From: a virus
DNA: 43,287 nucleotides
IMG/VR virus record: IMGVR_UViG_3300024518_000009
Span: 1-43,287 of that record
Strand: one strand, 5' to 3'
Shown: one piece after another, positions 9,336 to 43,287 of the stretch
Position numbering within the stretch: position 1 is the first letter of the stretch
Layout: the number at the start of each line of letters is the position of its first letter
The notes under the pieces: model-generated
Told to the model about the DNA's origin: nothing
Database searches by the model: none
The model's input: only the letters and a program-made list of their open reading frames with translations
Position numbers and translations under genes: made by a program

Positions 9336-9511
9336 GTCTAGAAATCGAACGTAAGAAGATGGAAAGAAAAAGAGTTCTATTATCTTGCGATGAATATAAA
9401 TTTAAAATACTCGAAAGAGAGGAAGACATAAGGAAACTGAAAGTTCAGATTGAAGTCCAAGAGAAAAGGTTAATAGAAATAGATGAGCAATTAAGCCAAC
9501 AGGAGAAATAG
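9332..9511 (+). CDS. Small coiled-coil protein, 59 aa
   Basis: ATG 9332 overlaps the TGA of the upstream gene (ATGA) and reads to TAG at 9511. The product is very rich in Lys, Glu, Arg and Leu, with a heptad-like pattern through most of its length, so a single helical coiled coil is expected. It has one Cys. Its end carries the AGGAG site of the next gene. Real by coupling and spacing; function unknown. Confidence 0.7.
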   Translation: MSLEIERKKMERKRVLLSCDEYKFKILEREEDIRKLKVQIEVQEKRLIEIDEQLSQQEK

Positions 9512-9512
9512 C

Positions 9513-10064
9513 ATGGCCGATGCAGATACAAGTATGCCGATCAAAACAGAGTCGGATGTAGACGAAAAAGTACAAGTCAAGATGGTCGATTACACGACCC
9601 CTTCCCAGGGTCAAGAGATTGATACTGATGGCGATGCCCACGTAAAGGCGAAGCTTAGGGATGACACTGGTGCCGCATTTGGTACTGAAGCAAACCCGGT
9701 CAGAGTTGCTGAAACAGAAGACCCAGGGGACGAGGTAGAAGATTATCAAACTTCCGCAGCGGTTGCGAAAGATGCTGAGGCAGACCACGATTACACCGTG
9801 ACTGCTGCCAAGACTTTCAAGGCTATACAGCTAGTTGTTTCTTCTGCTGGTGAATTTAAGGTTGAATTAAAGAAAGAGACAGCACCTGCTTCGGGAATTT
9901 ATACAACACTGTATGTTGGGTTTAAGCAAGCAGCTGACCCAACATTTGTTCTACCTCTTTATAAAATATTTAGGCAAGTAGCTACTGCGAAAATCAGAGT
10001 TACCATCACCAATAGAGATAAGGTTACTGACCTTTATTCAACTCTGTCTGGTATAGAGGCTTAA
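9513..10064 (+). CDS. Hypothetical virion protein, beta-rich C-terminus
   Basis: A 183-residue protein with AGGAG 6-7 bases before ATG 9513. The N-terminal 80 residues are acidic and probably flexible. Residues about 85-183 form a predicted beta-sandwich (alternating Val/Ile/Thr strands). It lies in the head/tail structural block and may be a head decoration or fibre-anchoring protein. This is inferred from context only. Confidence 0.75.
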   Translation: MADADTSMPIKTESDVDEKVQVKMVDYTTPSQGQEIDTDGDAHVKAKLRDDTGAAFGTEANPVRVAETEDPGDEVEDYQTSAAVAKDAEADHDYTVTAAKTFKAIQLVVSSAGEFKVELKKETAPASGIYTTLYVGFKQAADPTFVLPLYKIFRQVATAKIRVTITNRDKVTDLYSTLSGIEA

Positions 10065-10067
10065 TAA

Positions 10068-11312
10068 ATGTCTGACCTATCTGGAGATGATTCAACTCAG
10101 GATGTAAAAATCCATGACCCTGTAGAGGTGACACCGCCTATGGGGTCTATTGATACTTCTGGTAGGAGTAGGGTCTCTAATGAAAATATTCTAGCAGAGC
10201 ATCCTCATACACTGGGGAAAGGTGATCGCTATTGGCATGAGAAGATAACTGGAGATGCTTCGGCTTCCTGGGATTCTGACATGTACGCGGTTGTCTCAAG
10301 CTCTGGTCTAGCGATTAATGCAAAAGTTGAGCGCCAGACCTACAGAGTTATGCAATATTTTAAAGGAGCATCAGCTTTTTCATTATGGTCCATTAGCTTT
10401 GTGGAAGAGAGGGCTGGCTGTGTTAAATGTTTTATGGTCGGCGATCAGTTTAATGGAGTAGGCCTTCAGTTAAATGGGTCAACTTTGCAAATGCTTATCA
10501 GGAGCGATGTGTCTGGCTCGGTTGTTGAAACAGTTATTGACCAGGCCGATTGGAGCGAAGACAAGCTTGATGGTACAGGGAAATCTGGTGTCACTCTTGA
10601 TATCACAAAAGATATGCTTGTCGAGTTTTCATATACCCACCTAGGCGTAGGGCCAGTTAGATTATCTATTCATGTCGGCGGGGATATTATATTCGCGCAT
10701 GTACATAAGACTGCAAACTTCCTTGCAGCTCCATGGTGTAAATCTGGCAGTCTCCCTATGCGAACAGAGATGACCAATACTACTGCCCAGGGCACAGAGA
10801 CCACTATGCGAATGAACTGCGCTAATTTTGTCAGTGACGGTGGTTCGGTTAACCAAGGTCTAATTCTCCCTTTTAGTACAGGAGTAAACACGGTCTCAGT
10901 TAATAGAACCGAGTCTGTAGTATTTGGCATTAGGCTTAGTGAGGCAACTAGATACCTATCGGCACTGCCTATTGGGTATGACATGAAAACCAAATCAGGC
11001 TCCAAGCATGTCTTCTGGAGAGTTTTATATAGACCCACTATTGTTAATGGTGTTTGGTCAGCAATAAATGGAGTCCTCGATAAGCTGGATTCGTACTCAT
11101 CTTACTCTGGAGGTTTTTCTATTGCAGAAGGACACTTTGATTTGTCTGTAGAAGAGTCGGAGTTTATTAATCTTATCGAAGGTGCTTTCGCCAGAGATGC
11201 TTATCTTGGGTACGACATAGACCATAACTCTGAACCATTACTACTTGTAGCTGAAACAGTATCAGGGTCAGGTTCTATTTTCGTAGCAGGAAGTGCGAGG
11301 ATATTCTTATGA
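10068..11312 (+). CDS. Probable structural (tail or decoration) protein
   Basis: A 414-residue protein, largely beta-structured. Near residues 30-48 it has a segment GRSRVSN...PHTL. It resembles the R-V-S-x-P-x-T-L signature at the N-terminus of a widespread group of phage structural proteins, as I recall it. The remainder looks like a jelly-roll or lectin-like domain with many Gly/Ser/Thr. Its stop overlaps the next gene's ATG (ATGA). Exact role unknown. Confidence 0.7.
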   Translation: MSDLSGDDSTQDVKIHDPVEVTPPMGSIDTSGRSRVSNENILAEHPHTLGKGDRYWHEKITGDASASWDSDMYAVVSSSGLAINAKVERQTYRVMQYFKGASAFSLWSISFVEERAGCVKCFMVGDQFNGVGLQLNGSTLQMLIRSDVSGSVVETVIDQADWSEDKLDGTGKSGVTLDITKDMLVEFSYTHLGVGPVRLSIHVGGDIIFAHVHKTANFLAAPWCKSGSLPMRTEMTNTTAQGTETTMRMNCANFVSDGGSVNQGLILPFSTGVNTVSVNRTESVVFGIRLSEATRYLSALPIGYDMKTKSGSKHVFWRVLYRPTIVNGVWSAINGVLDKLDSYSSYSGGFSIAEGHFDLSVEESEFINLIEGAFARDAYLGYDIDHNSEPLLLVAETVSGSGSIFVAGSARIFL

Positions 11313-28915: not shown

Positions 28916-28940
28916 AAACTTAGTGTGACACAGGTCTAGA

Positions 28941-28985
28941 TAAAAAGCAAGCTAGCGTTAACATGGGGCGTAATACTAGCTTGCT
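28941..28985 (-). terminator. Leftward rho-independent terminator
   Basis: Read on the minus strand, AGCAAGCTAG pairs perfectly with CTAGCTTGCT (10 bp; 28976-28985 with 28946-28955). After one mismatch a further 4-bp stem follows, then a 10-base loop, and a TTTTT run comes after the hairpin. It lies 26 bases beyond the last lysis-type gene and separates it from the phosphoesterase gene. Confidence 0.8.
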
Positions 28986-29010
28986 CATATAATAGCGATG
29001 AGAGCGACAA

Positions 29011-29331
29011 CTATTTTGTAGCACTTCTCCTACATATAATCAAGTCTTTTCGCAAATCGGCACAATAGTTCAAGAGTGCTTGAAAGTCTGTAGCTTTCGT
29101 GCATACGTCACCTTTAAACAACTGCCGGAAATACTTCCTGTCCTTCTCTAGCAATCTCTTATCATTACATGCAAGCTCACCTGGCTGGAATCCTGATGCC
29201 ATGCATAGTTCTGACTTAGGTGGTGGGTGCTTCCTACATCCACTTATTATCAACAAGGTCATTAAGATCAGAAACAATGCCAAGCATTTCGTCGCGGTCT
29301 TTGGTAAGTGCGAATCGGTGTGTGAGGACAT
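29011..29331 (-). CDS. Lipoprotein, probable outer-membrane spanin-like
   Basis: A 106-residue protein with a signal peptide and lipobox (ISGC, lipid-bearing Cys32). A strong AAGGAG site 7 bases before ATG 29331 fixes the start inside the preceding gene, giving a 98-base overlap in another frame. After the anchor comes a short Pro-rich stretch (HPPPK), then Cys residues and a charged helical region. A lipoprotein gene overlapped by its upstream neighbour next to a holin candidate is the layout of spanin pairs, which fuse inner and outer membranes at lysis. The spanin assignment is inferred. Confidence 0.65.
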   Translation of the reverse strand: MSSHTDSHLPKTATKCLALFLILMTLLIISGCRKHPPPKSELCMASGFQPGELACNDKRLLEKDRKYFRQLFKGDVCTKATDFQALLNYCADLRKDLIICRRSATK

Positions 29332-35635: not shown

Positions 35636-36319
35636 TTACCTCCAGTATTTTCGTGCCATCTCGGCTACGATGTTAGTGTCTACTTGATTGTAGTTGACCA
35701 GCTTGGCCCATAGTTCTGACTCGGTCTGTCCATCCTTGTCGATAGCTGCTGCCATGATGTCGTCGTACAGTTTCTGCACGTCACCACCACCCATTGGCTT
35801 ATCACTCAGGTTCAGGCCATGACTGTATTCGGATAGCTTGCCCCTCTGTCCACTCGCGGAAGAGTAACCAAACATATCGTCGGTATCAAACTGGCTGTAC
35901 CTGTCCATCAGGACATCAGGTATCGGCAGGTCGTTTGCCATGTAGCGTCCAACCATGAAAGGGAAGTCGAAGTTCTTCGAGTACATCCCGATGGTAGTGC
36001 GCGCCTTGTCAAGTGATGCAGCCAACTGCCGCAGCACATCAGTCTCGTTGTGTCCATAGAAACACTGGCGGTACTCAGGCATGTCGCATCGCTCAACAGC
36101 TACGCTAATGATCTTACCTGTCCACCACTTGAGGCCATGCTTATGCGCTGCTTCCTCTCGCTTCTTGTCGGTCACTCTCTTGATAGCTTCCTCAGTCTTG
36201 GCATTGCCTGGGCTGTAGTATGCCTTGTCAGTGAAGTCCTTAGCTACCTTACCTTGGCTCACTGTCTCAATGTCAATGGCCATCATGCCCTTGAGCTTCT
36301 CAGTGTAGGGTCTAGTCAT
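35636..36319 (-). CDS. DnaQ/PolB-like 3'-5' exonuclease
   Basis: A 227-residue DEDD-family exonuclease resembling the stand-alone exonuclease domain of B-family polymerases. Exo I has AIDIE (D16, E18). Exo II region is YSKNFDFPFMVGRYM. Exo III is YNQVDTNIVAEM with the final Asp. No polymerase domain is attached. ATG 36319 (site AAGGGG) is preferred over TTG 36325. It overlaps the upstream gene by 8 bases and leaves 2 bases before the ATPase GTG. Likely proof-reading or end-resection. Confidence 0.82.
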   Translation of the reverse strand: MTRPYTEKLKGMMAIDIETVSQGKVAKDFTDKAYYSPGNAKTEEAIKRVTDKKREEAAHKHGLKWWTGKIISVAVERCDMPEYRQCFYGHNETDVLRQLAASLDKARTTIGMYSKNFDFPFMVGRYMANDLPIPDVLMDRYSQFDTDDMFGYSSASGQRGKLSEYSHGLNLSDKPMGGGDVQKLYDDIMAAAIDKDGQTESELWAKLVNYNQVDTNIVAEMARKYWR

Positions 36320-36587
36320 TACCAAACCCCTTCTCGATAATGGCTAGCTCTGTTACATTTTCGCCGTCACATCCTTGAGTCAAGCAAGGTGAATAAAAAT
36401 TACACTCTCTAACTTGGTAATAGTCGCAGTCTCTAAAGTCCCCGCCATCTTTCTTTGTCTTAACGGCTAGCATCACGTCGCCTATCTCTAAGTCTCCATC
36501 AACTCCCGCAAAGTATCCGCCGCCAATCCTTCCCAAGAGAACTAAGTCTCCTACTTTTGCTTCTTTAATCCTATGCCCTTTCATCAT
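36312..36587 (-). CDS. Small hypothetical protein with SH3-like beta core
   Basis: A protein of about 91 residues. An AAGGAG site precedes a GTG-ATG-ATG run; start 36587 or 36584 is likely. A segment KVGDLVLL...GDVMLAVKTK suggests a small beta-barrel, and three Cys lie in CNFYSPCLTQGC. Function unknown. Confidence 0.7.
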   Translation of the reverse strand: MMKGHRIKEAKVGDLVLLGRIGGGYFAGVDGDLEIGDVMLAVKTKKDGGDFRDCDYYQVRECNFYSPCLTQGCDGENVTELAIIEKGFGND

Positions 36588-36780
36588 CACTCCTTGTTAT
36601 ACCGAGCCGCTTAAGTACAGCTCTGTCCTTGGCTGCGTTATTGCATGCCTTACAGTCGGACCTTAGTCCGTCTTTACTCTTCTTGTCTGCGTAAAAAAAC
36701 TTGGTAGTCGCTGGCAATTCCTTGCCGCATGCCCCTCGCGAGCAGGTCTTATGTCCCTGCCCGTCACTCGTTTGATTCAT
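36571..36780 (-). CDS. Small zinc-finger protein
   Basis: A 69-residue protein with GGAGGG before ATG 36780. Cys pairs KTCSRGACGK and CKACN flank a ...TTKFFYADKKSKDGLRSD... block, the CxxxxCxK...F...DGL...CKxC knuckle found beside HNH and other phage DNA-binding domains. No HNH motif follows. The upstream gap (36781-36832) holds a 5-bp hairpin (AACGT/ACGTT) and a weak TATATT -10, so a minor internal promoter is possible. Confidence 0.72.
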   Translation of the reverse strand: MNQTSDGQGHKTCSRGACGKELPATTKFFYADKKSKDGLRSDCKACNNAAKDRAVLKRLGITRSDDERA

Positions 36781-36832
36781 TGTCCCTCCAATTGTGAACG
36801 TGATACGTTGATACTTCCAATATAATAATTAG

Positions 36833-37348
36833 CTAGTCATTAGCTAATCCATCTAATTTCTTAGTCAGCTTGTACATCCGATAGCTACCTGACCTGGCTC
36901 GATGGAGCGGGAGGTCAAGGCGCACGTCATACTGCTGGTACTCCTTGTTCGTACCCTTGTGGACAGCCGCATCATTGTGCTTGTCTGCCCTCACTGATAT
37001 GTATGCACTGCATCCTGGCTTGAGTAGCCGCTCGATGTCGCGCAGTATCACATCCCTTACGTCTTGGTCCACCACGTTAAGAACATAATGGCAAGTGATA
37101 AGGTCGTATGAATTGTCCGGTGCATCAATCAGTCCCATCATCGGGTGGTCTGTCCTGCTGTCGGTGATCATACCCTTGGTGAAGTGCGGGTCATAACAAT
37201 CCATGTCATAATGCTTGGCGTCCCTGCCTCTACCGCACCCATAGTCCAGTGCGTTAGTGTTCATTGTTAGTATGCCTGCGTCAAACAGGTAGCGCATTGG
37301 TGCGCTGGCCTTGGTTCGCCCTATTGCTGAGCGCCATGTGTTAGTCAT
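36833..37348 (-). CDS. Class I SAM-dependent methyltransferase
   Basis: A 171-residue Rossmann-fold methyltransferase. Motif I is ALDYGCGRGRD (residues 33-43), followed by an acidic strand end (YDPHF). YDLITCHYVLNVV is the motif IV region. The short length and absence of a DPPY-type motif argue against a typical N6-adenine DNA methylase. Some related enzymes are annotated as phosphorothioation-associated or DNA-modification methylases, but the substrate is unknown. ATG 37348 follows GGAGAAGG. Confidence 0.82.
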   Translation of the reverse strand: MTNTWRSAIGRTKASAPMRYLFDAGILTMNTNALDYGCGRGRDAKHYDMDCYDPHFTKGMITDSRTDHPMMGLIDAPDNSYDLITCHYVLNVVDQDVRDVILRDIERLLKPGCSAYISVRADKHNDAAVHKGTNKEYQQYDVRLDLPLHRARSGSYRMYKLTKKLDGLAND

Positions 37349-37580
37349 CACCTTCTCCTTGTAGTTTCTTCATTAGACTCTGTGCGTAGTAGCCACCGTA
37401 TCCATCAAACGCTGCGCCGTCGCTGCCGTCATGGCATGAGGCATAACACTCAGCTATATCATTCGCCTTGTTGATTACACCCTGCAAAAAATCTGCCTTG
37501 ATGTGCTTGATGTTGAGCGTCTTAACTTCCAGCTCTCCAATGCAAGCAAGCACCATGTCAATCTCGTTCTTGTCTACCAT
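37341..37580 (-). CDS. Small hypothetical protein
   Basis: A 79-residue protein with AGGAATG before ATG 37580; its stop overlaps the methyltransferase start by 8 bases. Helical N-terminus, then a Gly/Asp/Tyr-rich segment (about residues 45-66). No family recognised. Confidence 0.68.
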   Translation of the reverse strand: MVDKNEIDMVLACIGELEVKTLNIKHIKADFLQGVINKANDIAECYASCHDGSDGAAFDGYGGYYAQSLMKKLQGEGDD

Positions 37581-37581
37581 G

Positions 37582-37830
37582 TCACATTCCTAGTTGTGCT
37601 GCCTGCTTACGCAGTGCTAGCTGTTGCTTAGTGTGTTCGACTGGTGCCCATGCACCATCCGTATCCAGGTAGAACTGGATGTCGTGAGAGTAGACGCTGC
37701 CTGTCTCAGTGTACATGCCGTACACCTTGGCCAGCCTAGTGTTGCCTCTCATGTTGTCGGCAAGCTCAGCCTCCCAGCCTGTGCCTCGCAGCTTGACTCG
37801 CTGCCCCTTCTTTAATGCGTTAGTCTTCAT
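37582..37830 (-). CDS. Small basic hypothetical protein
   Basis: An 82-residue protein, ribosome site AGGGGAT before ATG 37830, overlapping the upstream gene (ATGA). A Lys-Gly-Gln-Arg-Val start and alternating strands suggest a small beta-barrel (SH3-like), followed by a Gln/Ala-rich helix. Function unknown. Confidence 0.7.
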   Translation of the reverse strand: MKTNALKKGQRVKLRGTGWEAELADNMRGNTRLAKVYGMYTETGSVYSHDIQFYLDTDGAWAPVEHTKQQLALRKQAAQLGM

Positions 37831-38285
37831 GCGTTATCCCCTGTTAGTAAGTTGGCGATCTTGTCTACATCGCACGTTGTTATCTTGAACCACTCGCCTC
37901 TCATTCTCTTGTCCGAGAAGCGACGGTGCAGGTCGCGCTCATAGCTGCGCGCCAAGCCTCTTGTTTTAAAAACCACAGTCTTATAGACCTCGATATGTTG
38001 CGGGTTGCCAGACTGTAGCGAGTTCCTTCGCTTCACCACGTCATTGGCTATGCCGATCTTGATCATGTCCAACCTCTTGCACTGCATAAAGTACAGGGTG
38101 CATGGCTTACCAGTCGCGTTAGACACAGTGCGCCTTGACGACTCGGCCTTGACGCATGCCTTTGCTGCTGCTCTCCATAGCTTGACATCATGCACGTTGT
38201 CAAAGAAAGGACTCTTGGTTGTGATACCTCGCGTCGTTATCTGTGACCTGTAGCGCATGCCGCATTGGGTCTGCCTAGTTTCCAT
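37827..38285 (-). CDS. T5orf172 / GIY-YIG-type domain protein
   Basis: A 152-residue protein. Residues about 60-145 show the T5orf172 (MUG113-like, GIY-YIG superfamily) pattern: LYFMQ, then MIKIGIANDVVKRRNSLQSGNP, an Arg-Ser-Tyr-Glu block, LHRRFSDKR and GEWFKIT. Such domains bind or nick DNA. ATG 38285 overlaps the upstream TAA (TAATG) with AAAGGGA before it; a longer in-frame start (38333) lies inside the lipoprotein gene and is unlikely. Confidence 0.8.
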   Translation of the reverse strand: METRQTQCGMRYRSQITTRGITTKSPFFDNVHDVKLWRAAAKACVKAESSRRTVSNATGKPCTLYFMQCKRLDMIKIGIANDVVKRRNSLQSGNPQHIEVYKTVVFKTRGLARSYERDLHRRFSDKRMRGEWFKITTCDVDKIANLLTGDNA

Positions 38286-38542
38286 TACCGTATCCCTTTG
38301 ATACAGGATATGCCCCGCGTTACCACATAGCACACCGTGTTGTACTGCTTGTCATAGTACCTATAGATTGGATACCCTGACTTGTTCCCCTTTGTTAGCC
38401 GCATCGAGTTAGGTAGCTCGACCTTGACTGGCCGCTTGTCTTTTTGACACGGTACACCTGGCACTTTGCCATAACATACCTCGTCATCAGTCCTGCTTGT
38501 GCAGCTGGCTAGTACCAATGCTGCTATGAGTAGTAGTTTCAC
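38285..38542 (-). CDS. Small lipoprotein
   Basis: An 85-residue protein with a short signal (KLLLIAALVL) and lipobox LASC (Cys14). The mature part is small, with four more Cys that could form two disulfides. GTG start at 38542 overlaps the upstream TGA (GTGA) with GGGG nearby. Expressed in the early/middle block, it might be exposed at the envelope, for example for superinfection exclusion. That role is inference. Confidence 0.72.
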   Translation of the reverse strand: MKLLLIAALVLASCTSRTDDEVCYGKVPGVPCQKDKRPVKVELPNSMRLTKGNKSGYPIYRYYDKQYNTVCYVVTRGISCIKGIR

Positions 38543-38811
38543 ATTACCCCCTGTCCAACATGCTTAAAATGCTCGCTGTCTCTTAGCACTCCCAGCACAT
38601 AGCCGGACGGCACCCTGAATCGTAGCTCTAATCCGCATTGACACTTGATGTCAGGTGGACTTGCTGTTGTGCAGTATCCTTCCTCGGTGCCATCAGCACC
38701 GGACTCCTTATTGCGCGGCCTGTCTTTATCATCAGGCCAGGTTAGATACTCCCCCATTATGTGCATCGCTTCACACTTTGGGCATGGTTCTTGAATGATT
38801 GATTCTGTCAT
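38539..38811 (-). CDS. Zinc-ribbon-like small protein
   Basis: A 90-residue protein with AAAGGAG before ATG 38811. Cys pairs CPKC (10-13) and CQC (about 58-60), with HIMGEY between, suggest a zinc ribbon with an inserted charged loop. Function unknown. Confidence 0.68.
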   Translation of the reverse strand: MTESIIQEPCPKCEAMHIMGEYLTWPDDKDRPRNKESGADGTEEGYCTTASPPDIKCQCGLELRFRVPSGYVLGVLRDSEHFKHVGQGVM

Positions 38812-38814
38812 GCG

Positions 38815-39096
38815 TTATCTCCTTTCGTTATGCGGTAGCCCGTAACTTCTGACGCCGCTTGTTAGTTCTGATATTAATAACTTATTCCTTACGCCCCATG
38901 TCAGTGCTAGCTGTATGTCGCACTGAAGTATGGGCCAATTCAAATGGATGTTGCTGCTGCTTACTGCGCATAGCCAATACCCTACGCTGCCTTGCACTAG
39001 GTATGTCCTACCTCCATTGCGCACCTCGTCTTTGAGTTCGCTTCGCACCTGGTCAACGATTCGCCTGCTCCTTTCTTTACGCTGTGCCCTATTCAT
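38815..39096 (-). CDS. Small basic hypothetical protein
   Basis: A 93-residue protein; GGAGAT before ATG 39096, overlapping the upstream gene by 4 bases. The first 25 residues are very basic (RAQRKERSRR), the remainder hydrophobic and mixed. No family recognised. Confidence 0.68.
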   Translation of the reverse strand: MNRAQRKERSRRIVDQVRSELKDEVRNGGRTYLVQGSVGYWLCAVSSSNIHLNWPILQCDIQLALTWGVRNKLLISELTSGVRSYGLPHNERR

Positions 39097-39698
39097 TTAA
39101 GTATCTCCTTGACATCGTGTGTCTTATTGCCGATGGTGTAGCACGTCATACAATCTTGGCATTTCTTGTGCCCACAATTAATATACTCGGCACCTTTATG
39201 CGTCTTGTCATAGACAGTGAACGTCTTATCAAAGTGTTGCGGCAGTGGGTCAACCACGTTTAGTTGATTGCTGCTGCGTATCAGTATTAAATTACTCGGC
39301 TTGTCAAAGTCTCGCAGCACCTTGGCGACCAGGTCAACGCGCTTAGTCCAAAGCGTGAAGGTGGTCTTAGGATTGGCGCGGCATATCAATAGCAGGTTAG
39401 CTAAGTGAGTACCATTGTGCAGCTCACCATGCGCACTGAATCGTACAGTCAATGCGTTGAGTCGTGGTACTTGCCAGTCTTCTAGCATGGCACCCTTTAA
39501 TAACTCACCGTTTCTTTGGAACGCAGCTTCGGCATTTTTGTACCGCGCCATAGTCTTTCGAGAGTAACACTCTCCGCATGGCCCATCGTCTAGCTTGCTC
39601 ATTGCGTTACAGAAATCGTTACTCAGTGGGTCAGTATTGATAGACATAAAGCCCGTCATCTTACCAGTCATGCGCTTAGTTATATGCACTGCGTTCAT
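39093..39698 (-). CDS. Cys-rich protein resembling phage gp88-type family
   Basis: A 201-residue protein. CGECYSRKTMARYKN near residues 42-56, a strand FSAHGELHNGTHLANLL, NPKTTFTLWTKR and a C-terminal cluster CGHKKCQDCMTCY follow the layout of the phage gene-88-type family as I remember it: Cys-rich start, barrel-like middle, Cys cluster end. The Cys set could hold zinc or an iron-sulfur cluster. Its mRNA leader contains hairpin A (39722-39761), and AAGGAG stands 6 bases before ATG. Confidence 0.6.
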   Translation of the reverse strand: MNAVHITKRMTGKMTGFMSINTDPLSNDFCNAMSKLDDGPCGECYSRKTMARYKNAEAAFQRNGELLKGAMLEDWQVPRLNALTVRFSAHGELHNGTHLANLLLICRANPKTTFTLWTKRVDLVAKVLRDFDKPSNLILIRSSNQLNVVDPLPQHFDKTFTVYDKTHKGAEYINCGHKKCQDCMTCYTIGNKTHDVKEILK

Positions 39699-39704
39699 CG
39701 TTAA

Positions 39705-39761
39705 CTCCTTGTGTTAAACGGTTATGGAGAGGCGCGTCGTTTGTGACACACCTGACCATAA
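39705..39761 (-). promoter_or_regulatory. Leader hairpin A upstream of the gp88-like gene
   Basis: On the minus strand a 40-base hairpin runs from 39761 to 39722. Outer stem TTATGG/CCATAA (6 bp), a 2x2 internal loop, inner stem AGGTGTG/CGCGCCT (7 bp, two G-U) and a 10-base loop. Exactly 11 bases separate it from AAGGAG (39705-39710). It has the same build as the element at 40681-40722, with compensating base changes. No T-run, so not a terminator. Confidence 0.75.
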
Positions 39762-39765
39762 GCCC

Positions 39766-39903
39766 TTAACTTAGTTTAGGCTCAAGCATCCCGTACTCTT
39801 CTTTAGCAATTCTCAACGCCTCGCGTTCAGTCTCGGCCTCTATATCCTGGCCGTAAACTTGGGACTCATTGACGCGCTCGTCATAAATCATGTAGCTATT
39901 CAT
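39766..39903 (-). CDS. Small acidic protein, 45 aa
   Basis: ATG 39903 is chosen because it overlaps the upstream gene end by only 8 bases; the longer ORF from 39981 would bury most of its N-terminus in that gene. The product is Glu-rich and helical. Its stop is followed after 4 bases by leader hairpin A. Function unknown. Confidence 0.6.
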   Translation of the reverse strand: MNSYMIYDERVNESQVYGQDIEAETEREALRIAKEEYGMLEPKLS

Positions 39904-40078
39904 AGTCGTACCATCCTGTGCGTTGCAGCGTGTATTCATGGGGTGCCATGTCATGGATGTCCCATAGTTGCTGCGCGGCATGCTGCTTAGTGCTAGCTAC
40001 CAGCTCAATCGTTGTGCTGTGCATTGCGTGTCCTGGTTCAGTCAACACGGCATGCCATATAGTTCTGCGTCTAGTCAT
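39896..40078 (-). CDS. Small hypothetical protein, 60 aa
   Basis: ATG 40078 with AGGGGGA upstream, overlapping the upstream stop (ATGA). The longer ORF to 40108 lacks a site. The product is rich in His, Thr and aromatic residues; no family recognised. Confidence 0.65.
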   Translation of the reverse strand: MTRRRTIWHAVLTEPGHAMHSTTIELVASTKQHAAQQLWDIHDMAPHEYTLQRTGWYDYE

Positions 40079-40230
40079 AGTTCCCCCTGGTGCTGGCAGT
40101 CCCAGCATATTGCGTCATAGTCACGCGTAGTTAATAAGCACTTGCAGTTATTGCAATGCGTTTCAAGATCACTGATAATAGCTCGGGCCGTAGCGTCAAA
40201 CTTGTCGTGTGCATCATCCTCTTGACTCAT
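40075..40230 (-). CDS. Small zinc-ribbon-like protein, 51 aa
   Basis: ATG 40230 with a GGGG site, overlapping the upstream stop (ATGA). An acidic helical N-terminus is followed by Cys pairs CNNC and CWDC, separated by 12 residues (a compact zinc ribbon). Function unknown. Confidence 0.68.
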   Translation of the reverse strand: MSQEDDAHDKFDATARAIISDLETHCNNCKCLLTTRDYDAICWDCQHQGEL

Positions 40231-40658
40231 AGCCCCAACCTTGCTCGACACGATGGGCCGAACCCTGACGCTATGCTTTCTGGTACGGTCAGTGACTTGC
40301 CGCATCTAGCGCAGTGTCCTTCATGCTGCACGTCAAGCTTGCGTAGGTCATCATTCACTATTGCTTGCCATGCGTAATTGAAGGCAAGATGACTCGGTGC
40401 ATTCACTCCGATTCTACTTTTCTTGCCCCGTGTGTAGCGCAGGTTGTCAACCCAGATTTGACCCAGGTAGTTATATTGTTCGTCGCAGCCCGTCAGAACC
40501 TCAACGAAACGGACGTTCGCGTCATGGTCTGTCTTATGACCGCCCGCATCAGTGAGCACACTCGGTGCCTTGACGCGGTAGGTAAACCTCTTGCCCGTGG
40601 CCTTGCTCGTAACTGTGAACACAGCTCGGCCCGCCAAGACAAATGCCTTGTTATTCAT
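40227..40658 (-). CDS. DUF6011-like zinc-ribbon protein
   Basis: A 143-residue protein. The C-terminal signature CARCGKSLTVPESIASGFGP..C (about residues 116-138) is the DUF6011 pattern: a Cys knuckle, then a P-E-S-I-A-x-G-x-G-P turn and final Cys. The N-terminal 100 residues are mixed alpha/beta. AAGGAG lies 5 bases before ATG 40658, preceded by leader hairpin B. Function of the family is unknown to me. Confidence 0.72.
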   Translation of the reverse strand: MNNKAFVLAGRAVFTVTSKATGKRFTYRVKAPSVLTDAGGHKTDHDANVRFVEVLTGCDEQYNYLGQIWVDNLRYTRGKKSRIGVNAPSHLAFNYAWQAIVNDDLRKLDVQHEGHCARCGKSLTVPESIASGFGPSCRARLGL

Positions 40659-40663
40659 ACTAA

Positions 40664-40722
40664 CTCCTTGCGTTAGAAGGTTATGCAGCAGGCCAAGTGA
40701 TTAGGCTTGACCCGTAGCATAA
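40664..40722 (-). promoter_or_regulatory. Leader hairpin B upstream of the DUF6011-like gene
   Basis: On the minus strand a 42-base hairpin runs from 40722 to 40681. Outer stem TTATGC/GCATAA (6 bp), a 2x2 internal loop, inner stem CGGGTCAAG/CTTGGCCTG (9 bp, two G-U) and an 8-base loop. Eleven bases then lead to AAGGAG (40664-40669), the same distance as for hairpin A. It begins 11 bases after the preceding stop codon. Confidence 0.75.
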
Positions 40723-40733
40723 GTTCCTAATGC

Positions 40734-41015
40734 CTATGGTTTAAAGTGGACGATGTATTTGCCATCTGTGTCATGGTAGAAAATGGTGTGGGTTTCGCTG
40801 CGCTTCCCATGGAAAGCTGGACGCTTTTCAGCATGCTTAATTGCCTTGATGCGGCCGTCCATATCCTTGGCACCGTCAGGAAATTTCCTCCACGCCTGGT
40901 CTAGTGCGTTTTTGTATTGTATCGCGCCCTTTAATAGCGCATCCCATGCCGCCTGACTTGGGTTGAGATGAATAGTTTCTACATCCGACGTACTAGAATG
41001 AAATGAATTTGCCAT
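40734..41015 (-). CDS. First gene of the leftward early operon
   Basis: A 93-residue protein with AAAGGAG before ATG 41015, about 30 bases downstream of the predicted transcription start. It has a polar N-terminus, a helical middle with Trp/Lys/Arg, and a beta-like C-terminus with His-Thr-Ile-Phe-Tyr-His. As the first early product it may modify the host, but no family is recognised. Confidence 0.78.
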   Translation of the reverse strand: MANSFHSSTSDVETIHLNPSQAAWDALLKGAIQYKNALDQAWRKFPDGAKDMDGRIKAIKHAEKRPAFHGKRSETHTIFYHDTDGKYIVHFKP

Positions 41016-41051
41016 GATAGCTCCTTTGCTATTGCTTGATTTCTTAATACG

Positions 41052-41080
41052 ATCTTAGAATCGTGGTCACGAAAAGTCAA
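41052..41080 (-). promoter_or_regulatory. Strong leftward sigma-70-like promoter
   Basis: Read on the minus strand: TTGACT (41080-41075), a 17-base spacer and TAAGAT (41057-41052). An A/T-rich block with an A8 run (41098-41120) lies upstream, like an UP element. The -10 sits inside a symmetric ACGAT...ATCGT sequence, and the spacer holds CGTG/CACG, so a repressor could bind here. It should start the whole leftward early transcript near 41045. Confidence 0.85.
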
Positions 41081-41883
41081 GCGAGTGGGTCGATTTATTT
41101 GCTCTTTATAAGCTTTTTTTTCGGCCGCTTGTTTCGATCAATTGTTTGCCTGATCTCTTTAACCATAATAGCAGGTGATCACGATAATAGAAGTCTAAAG
41201 ATTAGATAGTCAGCATCTAATAATTAGATAATGTCTGCCGCTCATAGGTTGGTTAATATGTCAAATTTAGCCCATAACTTTTGTCTATAGCTGGAGCAGT
41301 TGGCATTAGTTTAGCTTATGGTTGGGTTGGGGGAGATGTTGCTAGGGGATAGTGTCACCCGCCTACCTTTTCCCTCAGCCCTACACCAGGCTATCCAAGA
41401 AGCCAAGCCGCAGGCAGTCATCATTACTGCGCAGATTCTATGCTGCTGGTCGGTCAGCGTTAGGCCCACCGCACCAGGATGCTGGACGCAGTCCGTATGC
41501 GTGACTCGTCGCGCAACCCGTGTCTGTCAACCTACAAAGATTCCTTTCAGTAGGAAGGGGGGCTATGGGTCTAGATACCATACTGTATTTAAATGTACCT
41601 GTGACACCCACCCAGAAAAATCCGACAACCCAGCCTAGCCAGAACCGACTGAAAAAATAACCAAGCTATTAGACGAGCCTTCTACAGTCTGCCCAAGTAT
41701 AAGCAAAGCTAATACATAGCCAGCTTTTTCCGATTTGCAAATTGTGAACATCCATGCTACCCTCTTTAGTAGACCAGCTAGCCACGTTTCAGACATACAG
41801 GCAAGCATCCACGGTCTCGCCACTTCTTGGTTATTAATGTATTTTATTTTAGGCAGTACCTGCGCCTTGTGCTAGAATTAGGT
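41081..41883. other. Non-coding control region without convincing genes
   Basis: About 800 bases. The ORFs seen (41318-41638 plus, 41635-41823 minus) lack ribosome sites and plausible composition. Features are an A/T-rich tract (41098-41120), a GTGATCAC palindrome (41175-41182), a weak rightward promoter-like TTGTTT/CATAAT pair (about 41142-41169, spacer 16), the ATTAGAT symmetry, a G-rich stretch (41320-41335) and a TGCTAGAAT extended -10 near 41870. A replication origin or regulatory RNA could lie here, but I see no proof. Confidence 0.6.
41201..41229. repeat. Triple ATTAGAT / ATCTAAT symmetry element
   Basis: ATTAGAT (41201-41207), its reverse complement ATCTAAT (41215-41221) and ATTAGAT again (41223-41229). 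The last two form a perfect 15-base palindrome around a central A; the first two form a 7-bp stem with a 7-base loop. The middle copy can pair with either neighbour. This looks like an operator pair or an alternative-hairpin switch in the divergent control region. Confidence 0.7.
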
Positions 41884-42150
41884 ATGACTGACGAATACCA
41901 ATACCCACATCCCATGCTCTACCCCAAGACTGTCTTCACCAGCTACATAGTCCATGACATGCTTAAGTACAGGGACATGCTCTACGGCTTTAAGATTATA
42001 TCCTGTGCCGAGTGCCCAGCTGATATGATGTACATCACTGACTGGGAGGGCCTGATAGATACGACGGTCCATAGCGTAGGGAAGAATGACAGGAAGCTGA
42101 TTAACCAGTTGTTAAAGCGGAAGGGCAAAGAAGTAGACCACGCCAACTAG
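41884..42150 (+). CDS. Small hypothetical protein, 88 aa
   Basis: ATG 41884 is chosen; upstream TTG 41827 is in frame but sits in the A/T-rich promoter area. It is rich in Tyr, Met and Asp with two Cys (SCAECP). The TGCTAGAAT extended -10 just before suggests an own promoter, perhaps with a very short leader. Its stop overlaps the stop of the leftward secreted protein gene by 3-4 bases. No family recognised. Confidence 0.62.
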   Translation: MTDEYQYPHPMLYPKTVFTSYIVHDMLKYRDMLYGFKIISCAECPADMMYITDWEGLIDTTVHSVGKNDRKLINQLLKRKGKEVDHAN

Positions 42151-42380
42151 CAGCCGTACTTATACCACGGCGAGTAGCAATCTAAATCCCCAGACATTTC
42201 CTGATAGAACAGACGGCCATCGATCATGGTCCAGACTTCCACTGTAGTCTCTGGCTCTGTGTCGTACTCGTAAAGTATTAGTTCATCCTCATGTACATCG
42301 CTGTATGGATTAGGTTCAACTAATATATCGTAGGCGTGGAGCTGACTGCTGAGCAGCAGCATGACAAGAAGCTTCATCAT
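42147..42380 (-). CDS. Small secreted or periplasmic protein
   Basis: A 77-residue protein with a signal peptide (MKLLVMLLLSS, probable cleavage after Leu-His-Ala near residue 16), then a strongly acidic, Tyr-rich mature part with two Cys. It runs against its neighbours: convergent with the 88-aa gene and divergent from the next rightward gene, whose promoter lies in its first codons. No ribosome site is evident. Role unknown; envelope modification is possible. Confidence 0.55.
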   Translation of the reverse strand: MMKLLVMLLLSSQLHAYDILVEPNPYSDVHEDELILYEYDTEPETTVEVWTMIDGRLFYQEMSGDLDCYSPWYKYGC

Positions 42381-42388
42381 GTTATAAT
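42361..42388 (+). promoter_or_regulatory. Rightward sigma-70-like promoter
   Basis: ATGACA (42361-42366; 5 of 6 to TTGACA), a 16-base spacer and TATAAT (42383-42388). Start expected near 42395, about 20 bases before the AAGGAG site of the gene at 42415. It overlaps the first codons of the leftward secreted-protein gene. Confidence 0.8.
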
Positions 42389-42414
42389 GGTATCACACTA
42401 ACAAGGAGCATTAT

Positions 42415-42642
42415 ATGAAGACATTAAAAGATGCAGGCATAGGGCTACTGGCCCTCTTGTTCTGCTTGACAGTAGGAGCCTATCTAATATTATCGTCTCC
42501 ACTAGAGGCAGTGATTTGGAATGACCTAAGTACGAACTGGAAGCTTTTCTATGTACCAGGCAATCTGTTTTGGGGATGGTCGGCCGTTCAGGGTTTAGCG
42601 TGTCTAGGCAAAGATTTTCTCAAGGACACTAGTCATGTCTAA
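42415..42642 (+). CDS. Small membrane protein
   Basis: A 75-residue protein with AAGGAG before ATG 42415 and the promoter just upstream. Residues about 9-27 form one clear hydrophobic span (GIGLLALLFCLTVGAYLIL); a Trp/Phe-rich segment follows (NLFWGW). It overlaps the next gene by 8 bases. Likely an inner-membrane protein of unknown role. Confidence 0.75.
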   Translation: MKTLKDAGIGLLALLFCLTVGAYLILSSPLEAVIWNDLSTNWKLFYVPGNLFWGWSAVQGLACLGKDFLKDTSHV

Positions 42643-42898
42643 AGAACTTAAGATGGGCCAGTTTTCAGTGGCTTACAGTACAGAGCGTAATTGCGTTTGC
42701 CTAAGGGCAACTATAGGGGAAACTTTTATAGAGGCTGATATGGACGATATGGAGGCCGTAACTTTGGCTAACTCTCTGTTATCGCACAGCACCATGGTTG
42801 ATCTTGATCGGGTAACTTATCCAGGGTATACTGAACCAGATGAGCGAACCTTTAAAGAAAAAGTCGCCGACCACTGTTCTGAGATTAGTAACAAATAG
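42635..42898 (+). CDS. Small acidic hypothetical protein
   Basis: An 87-residue protein with AAGGA before ATG 42635. Beta-like N-terminal half (including CVCLRATIG) and acidic helical C-terminal half (DMDDMEA). No family recognised. Confidence 0.7.
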   Translation: MSKELKMGQFSVAYSTERNCVCLRATIGETFIEADMDDMEAVTLANSLLSHSTMVDLDRVTYPGYTEPDERTFKEKVADHCSEISNK

Positions 42899-43067
42899 CG
42901 ACCCTGACCACGACCCTATCGAGCATAGGTTTGACACTATTATCGAATACATGCAGGACTTCGAAAGCGAGGAACTGGATGACCCGAATGAGTGGGTGCG
43001 TCTGAAAGTCCAGTTAGATATCCTGGCTGCCAAGCTTTTATATATACACTGGCGAGACGATCTATAG
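42840..43067 (+). CDS. Small acidic hypothetical protein, overlapping start
   Basis: A 75-residue ORF beginning 59 bases inside the upstream gene, in another frame; no ribosome site is seen, so the start is uncertain. The C-terminal part is outside the overlap, acidic with a Leu/Ile/Trp helix (about residues 50-72). The stop is immediately followed by the late promoter -10. Confidence 0.55.
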   Translation: MSEPLKKKSPTTVLRLVTNSDPDHDPIEHRFDTIIEYMQDFESEELDDPNEWVRLKVQLDILAAKLLYIHWRDDL

Positions 43068-43073
43068 TATAAT
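43045..43073 (+). promoter_or_regulatory. Candidate late-operon promoter
   Basis: A perfect TATAAT at 43068-43073 with a 17-base spacer to TACACT (3 of 6 matches to the -35 consensus). The weak -35 suggests help from an activator. Transcription would start near 43080 and give a leader of about 100 bases before the first late gene. Confidence 0.65.
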
Positions 43074-43089
43074 TTAAGTATCAAATCAG

Positions 43090-43130
43090 GTACTCGCCTT
43101 CTGCGGGAGGCGGTACTACCTTCGGGTTAG
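43090..43130 (+). promoter_or_regulatory. Tandem hairpins in late-operon leader
   Basis: Hairpin 1: GTAC, one bulged T, then CGCCTTC (43095-43101) pairs with GGAGGCG (43106-43112) and GTAC (43113-43116) around a TGCG tetraloop. Hairpin 2: CTACC (43116-43120) and GGTTAG (43125-43130) around TTCG, with one bulge. They lie about 50 bases before the first late gene. No T-run follows, so they probably stabilise the transcript 5' end or serve as a recognition site. Confidence 0.7.
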
Positions 43131-43160
43131 CCCTTGCATCCATTCCTGTCCTTTGTTACC

Positions 43161-43287
43161 CTATGACAATAGGAGTTAATATGGCAGAAGAAAAGAGTAC
43201 ACTCGAAAGATACCTTGCTGGAGAAATAGGGATTGACGAATTTGACCAGGCGACCAAGCTGGCCATACTTGAGTTCGGTGTCGATCT
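43161..43287. repeat. Right copy of 127-bp terminal direct repeat
   Basis: Identical to 1-127. It joins the leader (43074-43160) to the first late gene and shows that the sequence is a closed circle opened inside that gene. Confidence 0.95.
43181..43287 (+). CDS. Start of the first late gene (partial; continues at 128)
   Basis: Second copy of the first 107 bases of the gene at 21-1019, with the same AGGAG site (43171-43175). Cut by the end of the window. Together with the leader at 43074-43180 it shows the true upstream context of that gene. Confidence 0.9.
   Translation, partial: MAEEKSTLERYLAGEIGIDEFDQATKLAILEFGVD

Follow-up and report, generated by a model that had tools for sequence, protein, structure and literature searches.

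Two minus-strand leaders of an unclassified phage carry a real structured RNA. As judged from its anatomy, this RNA probably serves as an RNase III-type processing signal whose sequence type is new; the chief competing reading is an operator bound by a protein. The phage is IMG/VR record IMGVR_UViG_3300024518_000009, whose 43,287 nucleotides are referred to as the window, and its leaders at 39770-39705 and 40731-40664 share a three-tier hairpin made up of an outer helix P1, a middle helix P2 (TTATGN/NCATAA) and an upper helix P3, with small internal loops between them. In the reading to which we give about an even chance (0.5), these hairpins, H1 and H2, represent a single structured element that occurs twice, marks gene gaps within an operon and is cut by host RNase III.

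Architecture of the two hairpins

H1 (39713-39770, minus strand; -27.6 kcal/mol, z -5.85) lies upstream of a GP88-like gene and H2 (40672-40731, minus strand; -24.8 kcal/mol, z -6.05) upstream of a DUF6011 gene, with extents taken from the model alignment. The order of elements in H1 is P1 GTTAAG (39764-39769), P2 TTATGG (39756-39761), TC, P3 AGGTGTGTC (39745-39753), the 6-nt loop ACAAAC, the 9-bp partner strand GACGCGCCT (39730-39738), CT (39728-39729), CCATAA (39722-39727) and TTTAAC (39714-39719). In H2 it is P1 TTAGGA (40725-40730), P2 TTATGC (40717-40722), TA, P3 CGGGTCAAG (40706-40714), the 8-nt loop CCTAATCA, the 9-bp partner strand CTTGGCCTG (40689-40697), CT (40687-40688), GCATAA (40681-40686) and TTCTAA (40673-40678). 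A preliminary description had placed hairpins of one architecture at these sites, with the 6-bp stem now called P2 and a CT on the 3' side of the internal loop, all of which the folds bear out. It missed the outer helix P1, and its inner stems of 7 and 9 bp with loops of 10 and 8 bases hold for H2 and not for H1.

Both hairpins stand at the stop codon of the upstream gene and, as had been described, in the leaders of two genes, which belong to one operon: the stop TAA lies inside the P1 5' strand of H1 (39766-39768, minus strand), and the stop TAG upstream of H2 (40736-40734, minus strand) ends 3 nt before P1. On the other side, the gap to the Shine-Dalgarno sequence AAGGAG is 2-3 nt in both leaders (39705-39710, with the ATG of the GP88-like gene at 39698; 40664-40669, with the ATG of the DUF6011 gene at 40658), and the 11 bases previously noted to lead to AAGGAG are indeed identical at eight positions (CCGTTTAACAC vs CCTTCTAACGC). 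The downstream strand can also form a 5-bp hairpin, P4, which excludes P1 and holds the Shine-Dalgarno sequence in its loop (TTAAC-ACAAGGA-GTTAA at 39701-39717 for H1 and CTAAC-GCAAGGA-GTTAG at 40660-40676 for H2, minus strand). Perfect 5-6-bp hairpins with a Shine-Dalgarno sequence in the loop are found in the 41015 leader (about 41016-41036, minus strand) and the 7338 leader (plus strand) as well as at these two sites, and of these four leaders, three follow one another as the non-coding leaders in the H1/H2 operon.

Evidence for selection on RNA structure

When H1 and H2 are aligned, 8 of the 21 base pairs differ on both sides with pairing kept, and P1 carries its own compensatory change from A-U to G-C. 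Paired cells make up 97.6% of this alignment, falling to 36-45%, with 0-1 double changes, once one strand is shifted by 1-3 columns against its partner. The same two sequences can be regarded as direct repeats, spaced about 960 bp, that have diverged but still contain long identical stretches, and hence as a recently duplicated leader or a recombination boundary around a cassette (H2, four small ORFs, H1) in which structure is a by-product; this is very improbable, given that double changes preserve pairing precisely in P3, which has diverged most.

Folding of the individual sequences leads in the same direction. None of 200 dinucleotide shuffles matched the fold of H1 and none of 200 that of H2, and in a sliding fold of both strands of the whole window the two hairpins, neither of which lies in coding sequence, rank 6th and 8th in stability among non-overlapping 70-nt stretches. 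A generic descriptor of the geometry, allowing any letters, matched six times in other sequence amounting to 4.4 Mb with both strands counted, and none of the six combines an upper stem of at least 9 bp with a loop of at most 8 nt, whereas the window has both H1 and H2. Owing to G-U pairs, the fold of the sense strand is 5-8 kcal/mol more stable than that of the antisense strand (-27.6 vs -19.6 for H1 and -24.8 vs -20.0 for H2), a preference which argues for action at the level of RNA and not for a DNA inverted repeat.

The covariation had earlier been called direct evidence for selection on structure. The compensatory changes and the sense-strand preference uphold the substance of that claim, but its strength has to be reduced, since H1 and H2 are paralogous leaders of one genome, so that the argument rests on eight pairs in two sequences, and 3 of 500 sets of shuffled partners reach the same level of covariation. 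No Rfam family matches H1 or H2 at or above its gathering threshold, in keeping with the proposal that the element is apparently new.

A probable third copy in another phage

A pattern scan of IMG/VR, repeated with a richer pattern, revealed the whole architecture in a further contig, L022 (IMGVR_UViG_3300038673_000693; L277 6053-6110), in the order ACTGTAATC TTATGT TA TGCCGTATAG TTAA CTATACGGCA CT ACATAA CTTTATAAA, followed by AGGAG and ATG. P1 of L022 pairs in the register common to H1 and H2. L022 agrees with H2 in the TA x CT of the upper internal loop, and with H1 in that the P1 5' strand contains the stop codon of the preceding gene; the next gene downstream is on the same strand. Over all three copies, the letters CTTATG / T[AC] / CT / CATAAC are invariant and flank a variable P3.

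A covariance model of both hairpins had been suggested as a means to find relatives. Such a model, R3, had H1 and H2 as its only members, so that L022 serves as an independent test (in R3, as in the related model R2, two loop bases of H2 were omitted to hold the stem register), and it scored L022 at 38.8 bits, with an E-value of 2.2e-6 in 1.0 Mb. Everything else outside the window stayed at or below 14.6 bits in 1.9 Mb of sequence, a set that includes well over a hundred stretches picked for identical core letters. Over all of IMG/VR, the E-value of L022 is estimated at about 0.1, assuming tens of Gb. It is nevertheless probable that L022 is a further copy of the H1/H2 element, as its setting, with a stop codon in P1, genes on the same strand and a ribosome site, speaks against chance. 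With L022 added, 10 of the 21 pairs change on both sides, a level reached by none of 500 shuffles; thus, the case for structural selection improves, though with a lone example whose collection-wide E-value is near 0.1.

The suggested search yielded one outside match. Among the 193 distinct core matches listed from the viral and genome collections, the upper stem runs to 0-6 pairs, except in H1 and H2 (9 each) and L022 (11). The core pattern gave 91 matches in the genome collection, none of them structured; a complete scan with GGA added to the pattern gave no additional structured match, and a strict hairpin pattern gave no match at all. In the search for close relatives, neither blastn with positions 36000-43287 against phages nor the portal protein gave any match, and blastn of the hairpins against phages returned nothing useful. 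Relatives of the GP88 gene are limited to three distant loci (35-41% identity) whose leaders are without the element, and those of the DUF6011 gene are distant, the one inspected (L053) being without such a hairpin.

No protein common to the L022 contig and the present phage is detectable, and the element should therefore be either mobile between phages or answering something general in the host. By eye, an intein-like insert with an HNH endonuclease ORF in another frame (9392-10108) seems to split the ORF for the large terminase subunit in the L022 phage (L277 8451-10892).

Operon context

On the minus strand, the window presents in succession a candidate promoter of sigma-70 type (TTGACT-17-TAAGAT, 41052-41080; a match to consensus only), an ORF at 40734-41015, H2, the DUF6011 gene, small ORFs, H1, the GP88-family gene and a set of replication genes (Sak4-like ATPase, exonuclease, primase and helicase). 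The gene downstream of H2 (40227-40658) belongs to phrog_20259 (E 1e-31) and has a DUF6011 C-terminus (E 3.8e-13), its relatives being found in Caulobacter, Brevundimonas and Rhizobium phages, and the gene downstream of H1 (39093-39698) encodes a GP88 protein (PF17338; Pfam E 3.8e-13). Further matches in this phage concern portal, tail-fibre and internal-virion proteins; among the larger proteins tested there is no T7-type RNA polymerase. The gene order suggests that the genes around the hairpins are co-transcribed, and they are presumably early genes. Most genes of the operon overlap or abut, and the hairpins occur at only two of its many junctions, a point against the RNase III reading.

Could RNA polymerase itself read the element, as an antitermination or termination signal of the HK022 put type? 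Two related RNA elements per phage, as found here, offer an analogy with HK022, but the put sites act at transcript starts, whereas H1 and H2 lie inside the operon, about 1300 and 300 nt downstream of the candidate promoter, respectively, and the run of T that an intrinsic terminator would have is absent after the stems of both. Such a role is very improbable. A strong hairpin elsewhere in the window (GAGCAAGCTAG...CTAGCTTGCTTTTT, 28916-29010, minus strand), located after the ORF 29011-29331 near the end of the minus-strand operon, is likely an intrinsic terminator. Stable folds on both strands are also present at 41318-41515, a stretch without a convincing gene between the minus-strand operon and the right end.

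Proposed processing by RNase III and competing readings

The preliminary description left the function open among several roles; the anatomy favours processing by RNase III. In a long transcript, each hairpin would form a helix with hardly an interruption, some 25 layers long when its 21 pairs and two small internal loops are counted together. Host RNase III would bind this helix and cut its 3' strand at the upper internal loop, the predicted position being directly after CT (39728/39727 in H1, by analogy with T7 R sites, and 40687/40686 in H2). The upstream message would then retain most of the hairpin as its 3' end, and the downstream message would start with a leader of 28-29 nt, in which the freed strand could refold into P4 with the Shine-Dalgarno sequence in the loop. 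As an outcome, the genes after each hairpin may gain independent stability and translation. The pattern of conservation, with P2 and loop letters kept and P3 letters free, fits a signal read as double-stranded RNA shape. A precedent is the T7 R1.1 signal of 60 nt, in which a single RNase III cut gives fragments of 47 and 13 nt, and R1.1 is also cleaved by the RNase III of an alphaproteobacterium (PMC6121014, PMC4858673).

The invariant P2 letters and the C/T letters of the loop, however, exceed the conservation that RNase III is known to require, which suggests a specific ligand. One phage RNA-binding protein could read the P2/internal-loop face and repress or activate both genes together: the invariant letters surround a variable P3 in all three copies, the element is common to two genes of one operon, and with the hairpin ending so close to the Shine-Dalgarno sequence, a bound protein could block the ribosome. 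Against this operator, which we consider rather unlikely, stand the lack of any candidate regulator and the occurrence of the third copy in a phage with no detectable common protein, so that a regulator specific to one phage would need to have arisen by convergence or to have moved horizontally. Well-known operators (MS2 coat-type, T4 gene 32, regA) extend over part or all of the ribosome site, and their protein partner is known; they resemble H1 and H2 in being structured RNA near the Shine-Dalgarno sequence, but H1 and H2 leave that site open, the sequence being unpaired at a probability of at least 0.91 in the uncut full-leader fold. A related and doubtful notion is an undescribed class of leader RNA common to unrelated phages, in which the CTTATG-T[AC]/CT-CATAAC core would bind a dedicated factor and P1 and P4 would trade as upstream translation ends.

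A leader acting passively would need neither a dedicated protein nor a cut. The hairpin would shield the upstream 3' end from exonucleases or keep the Shine-Dalgarno sequence open, and part of this reading is that a ribosome completing the upstream gene may drive a switch between P1 and P4. The stable fold beside an open Shine-Dalgarno sequence, the stop codon within or just before P1, a compensatory T-A to C-G change in P4, and the occurrence of Shine-Dalgarno loops in 4 of 44 leaders (1.0 expected, P 0.017) are all in accordance with it. It leaves the fixed letters and the identical internal loops unexplained, and the balance of P1 and P4 is uneven: in H1 the two are nearly equal when more upstream sequence is included, whereas in H2 P1 is favoured by about 5 kcal/mol. 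Taken together, a passive stabiliser is quite unlikely. Since P1 wins clearly in uncut H2 and is only even in H1, a general P1/P4 switch is not claimed, and these unequal energies also weaken a strict P1/P4 riboswitch.

Comparison with T7, T3 and gh-1

Returning to RNase III processing, the R sites of T7 and T3 (R0.3-R18.5) are the nearest known counterpart. Like H1 and H2, they are intergenic in phage polycistronic RNA, lie about 30 nt before the start codon with the Shine-Dalgarno sequence also shortly downstream, and have an upper stem near 9 bp with a small loop, an internal loop and one or two lower stems, amounting to some 20 pairs. In the folds made here from T7 and an annotated T3 record, the upper stem measures 9-10 bp and is capped by a small loop, below it come an internal loop and the lower stems, and the T7/T3 consensus has 20 pairs. 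The closest geometry is that of T7/T3 R1 (9 bp, TA x AAT, 5 bp, 1x1, 4-5 bp), T3 R1 having a P3 of 9 bp, a TA x AAT loop, a P2 of 5 bp, a 1x1 loop and a P1 of 5 bp. The two groups differ in their internal loops, 2x2 in H1 and H2 as opposed to 2x3 and 1x1 in the R sites, and H1 and H2 are without the AAGGTC/GGCCTT upper stem with TTTATGA on the 3' side. By eye, H2 and T7 R1 have CTTAT..TAC.GGTCA / TGGCCTG in common.

A covariance model made from twelve T7/T3 R sites recovers the sites of K1F (E 1e-9 to 2e-4), but matches none of H1, H2 and L022 at an E-value of 10, and H2 was for this reason dropped as a homologue of T7 R1. The model is narrow, as it also misses the annotated sites of gh-1; its failure lowers the probability that the element is an R site and leaves unaffected the proposal that it works like one. 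The putative RNase III sites of the podovirus gh-1 (annotated R1-R13), matched by neither the R-site model nor the H1/H2 model, are, like H1 and H2, stem-loops, several of them intergenic; unlike H1 and H2, they have heterogeneous folds and no common internal loops.

Should the element be an RNase III signal, phage messages are processed in the T7 manner also outside the T7 group, under a different sequence signature, and a three-sequence model is available for finding more; if the fixed letters instead denote a dedicated binder, they offer an entry to a new phage RNA regulator. In T7 itself, the Shine-Dalgarno sequence of gene 0.5 lies in a 6-bp hairpin just after R0.5 (L070, about 1180-1197), in parallel to P4.
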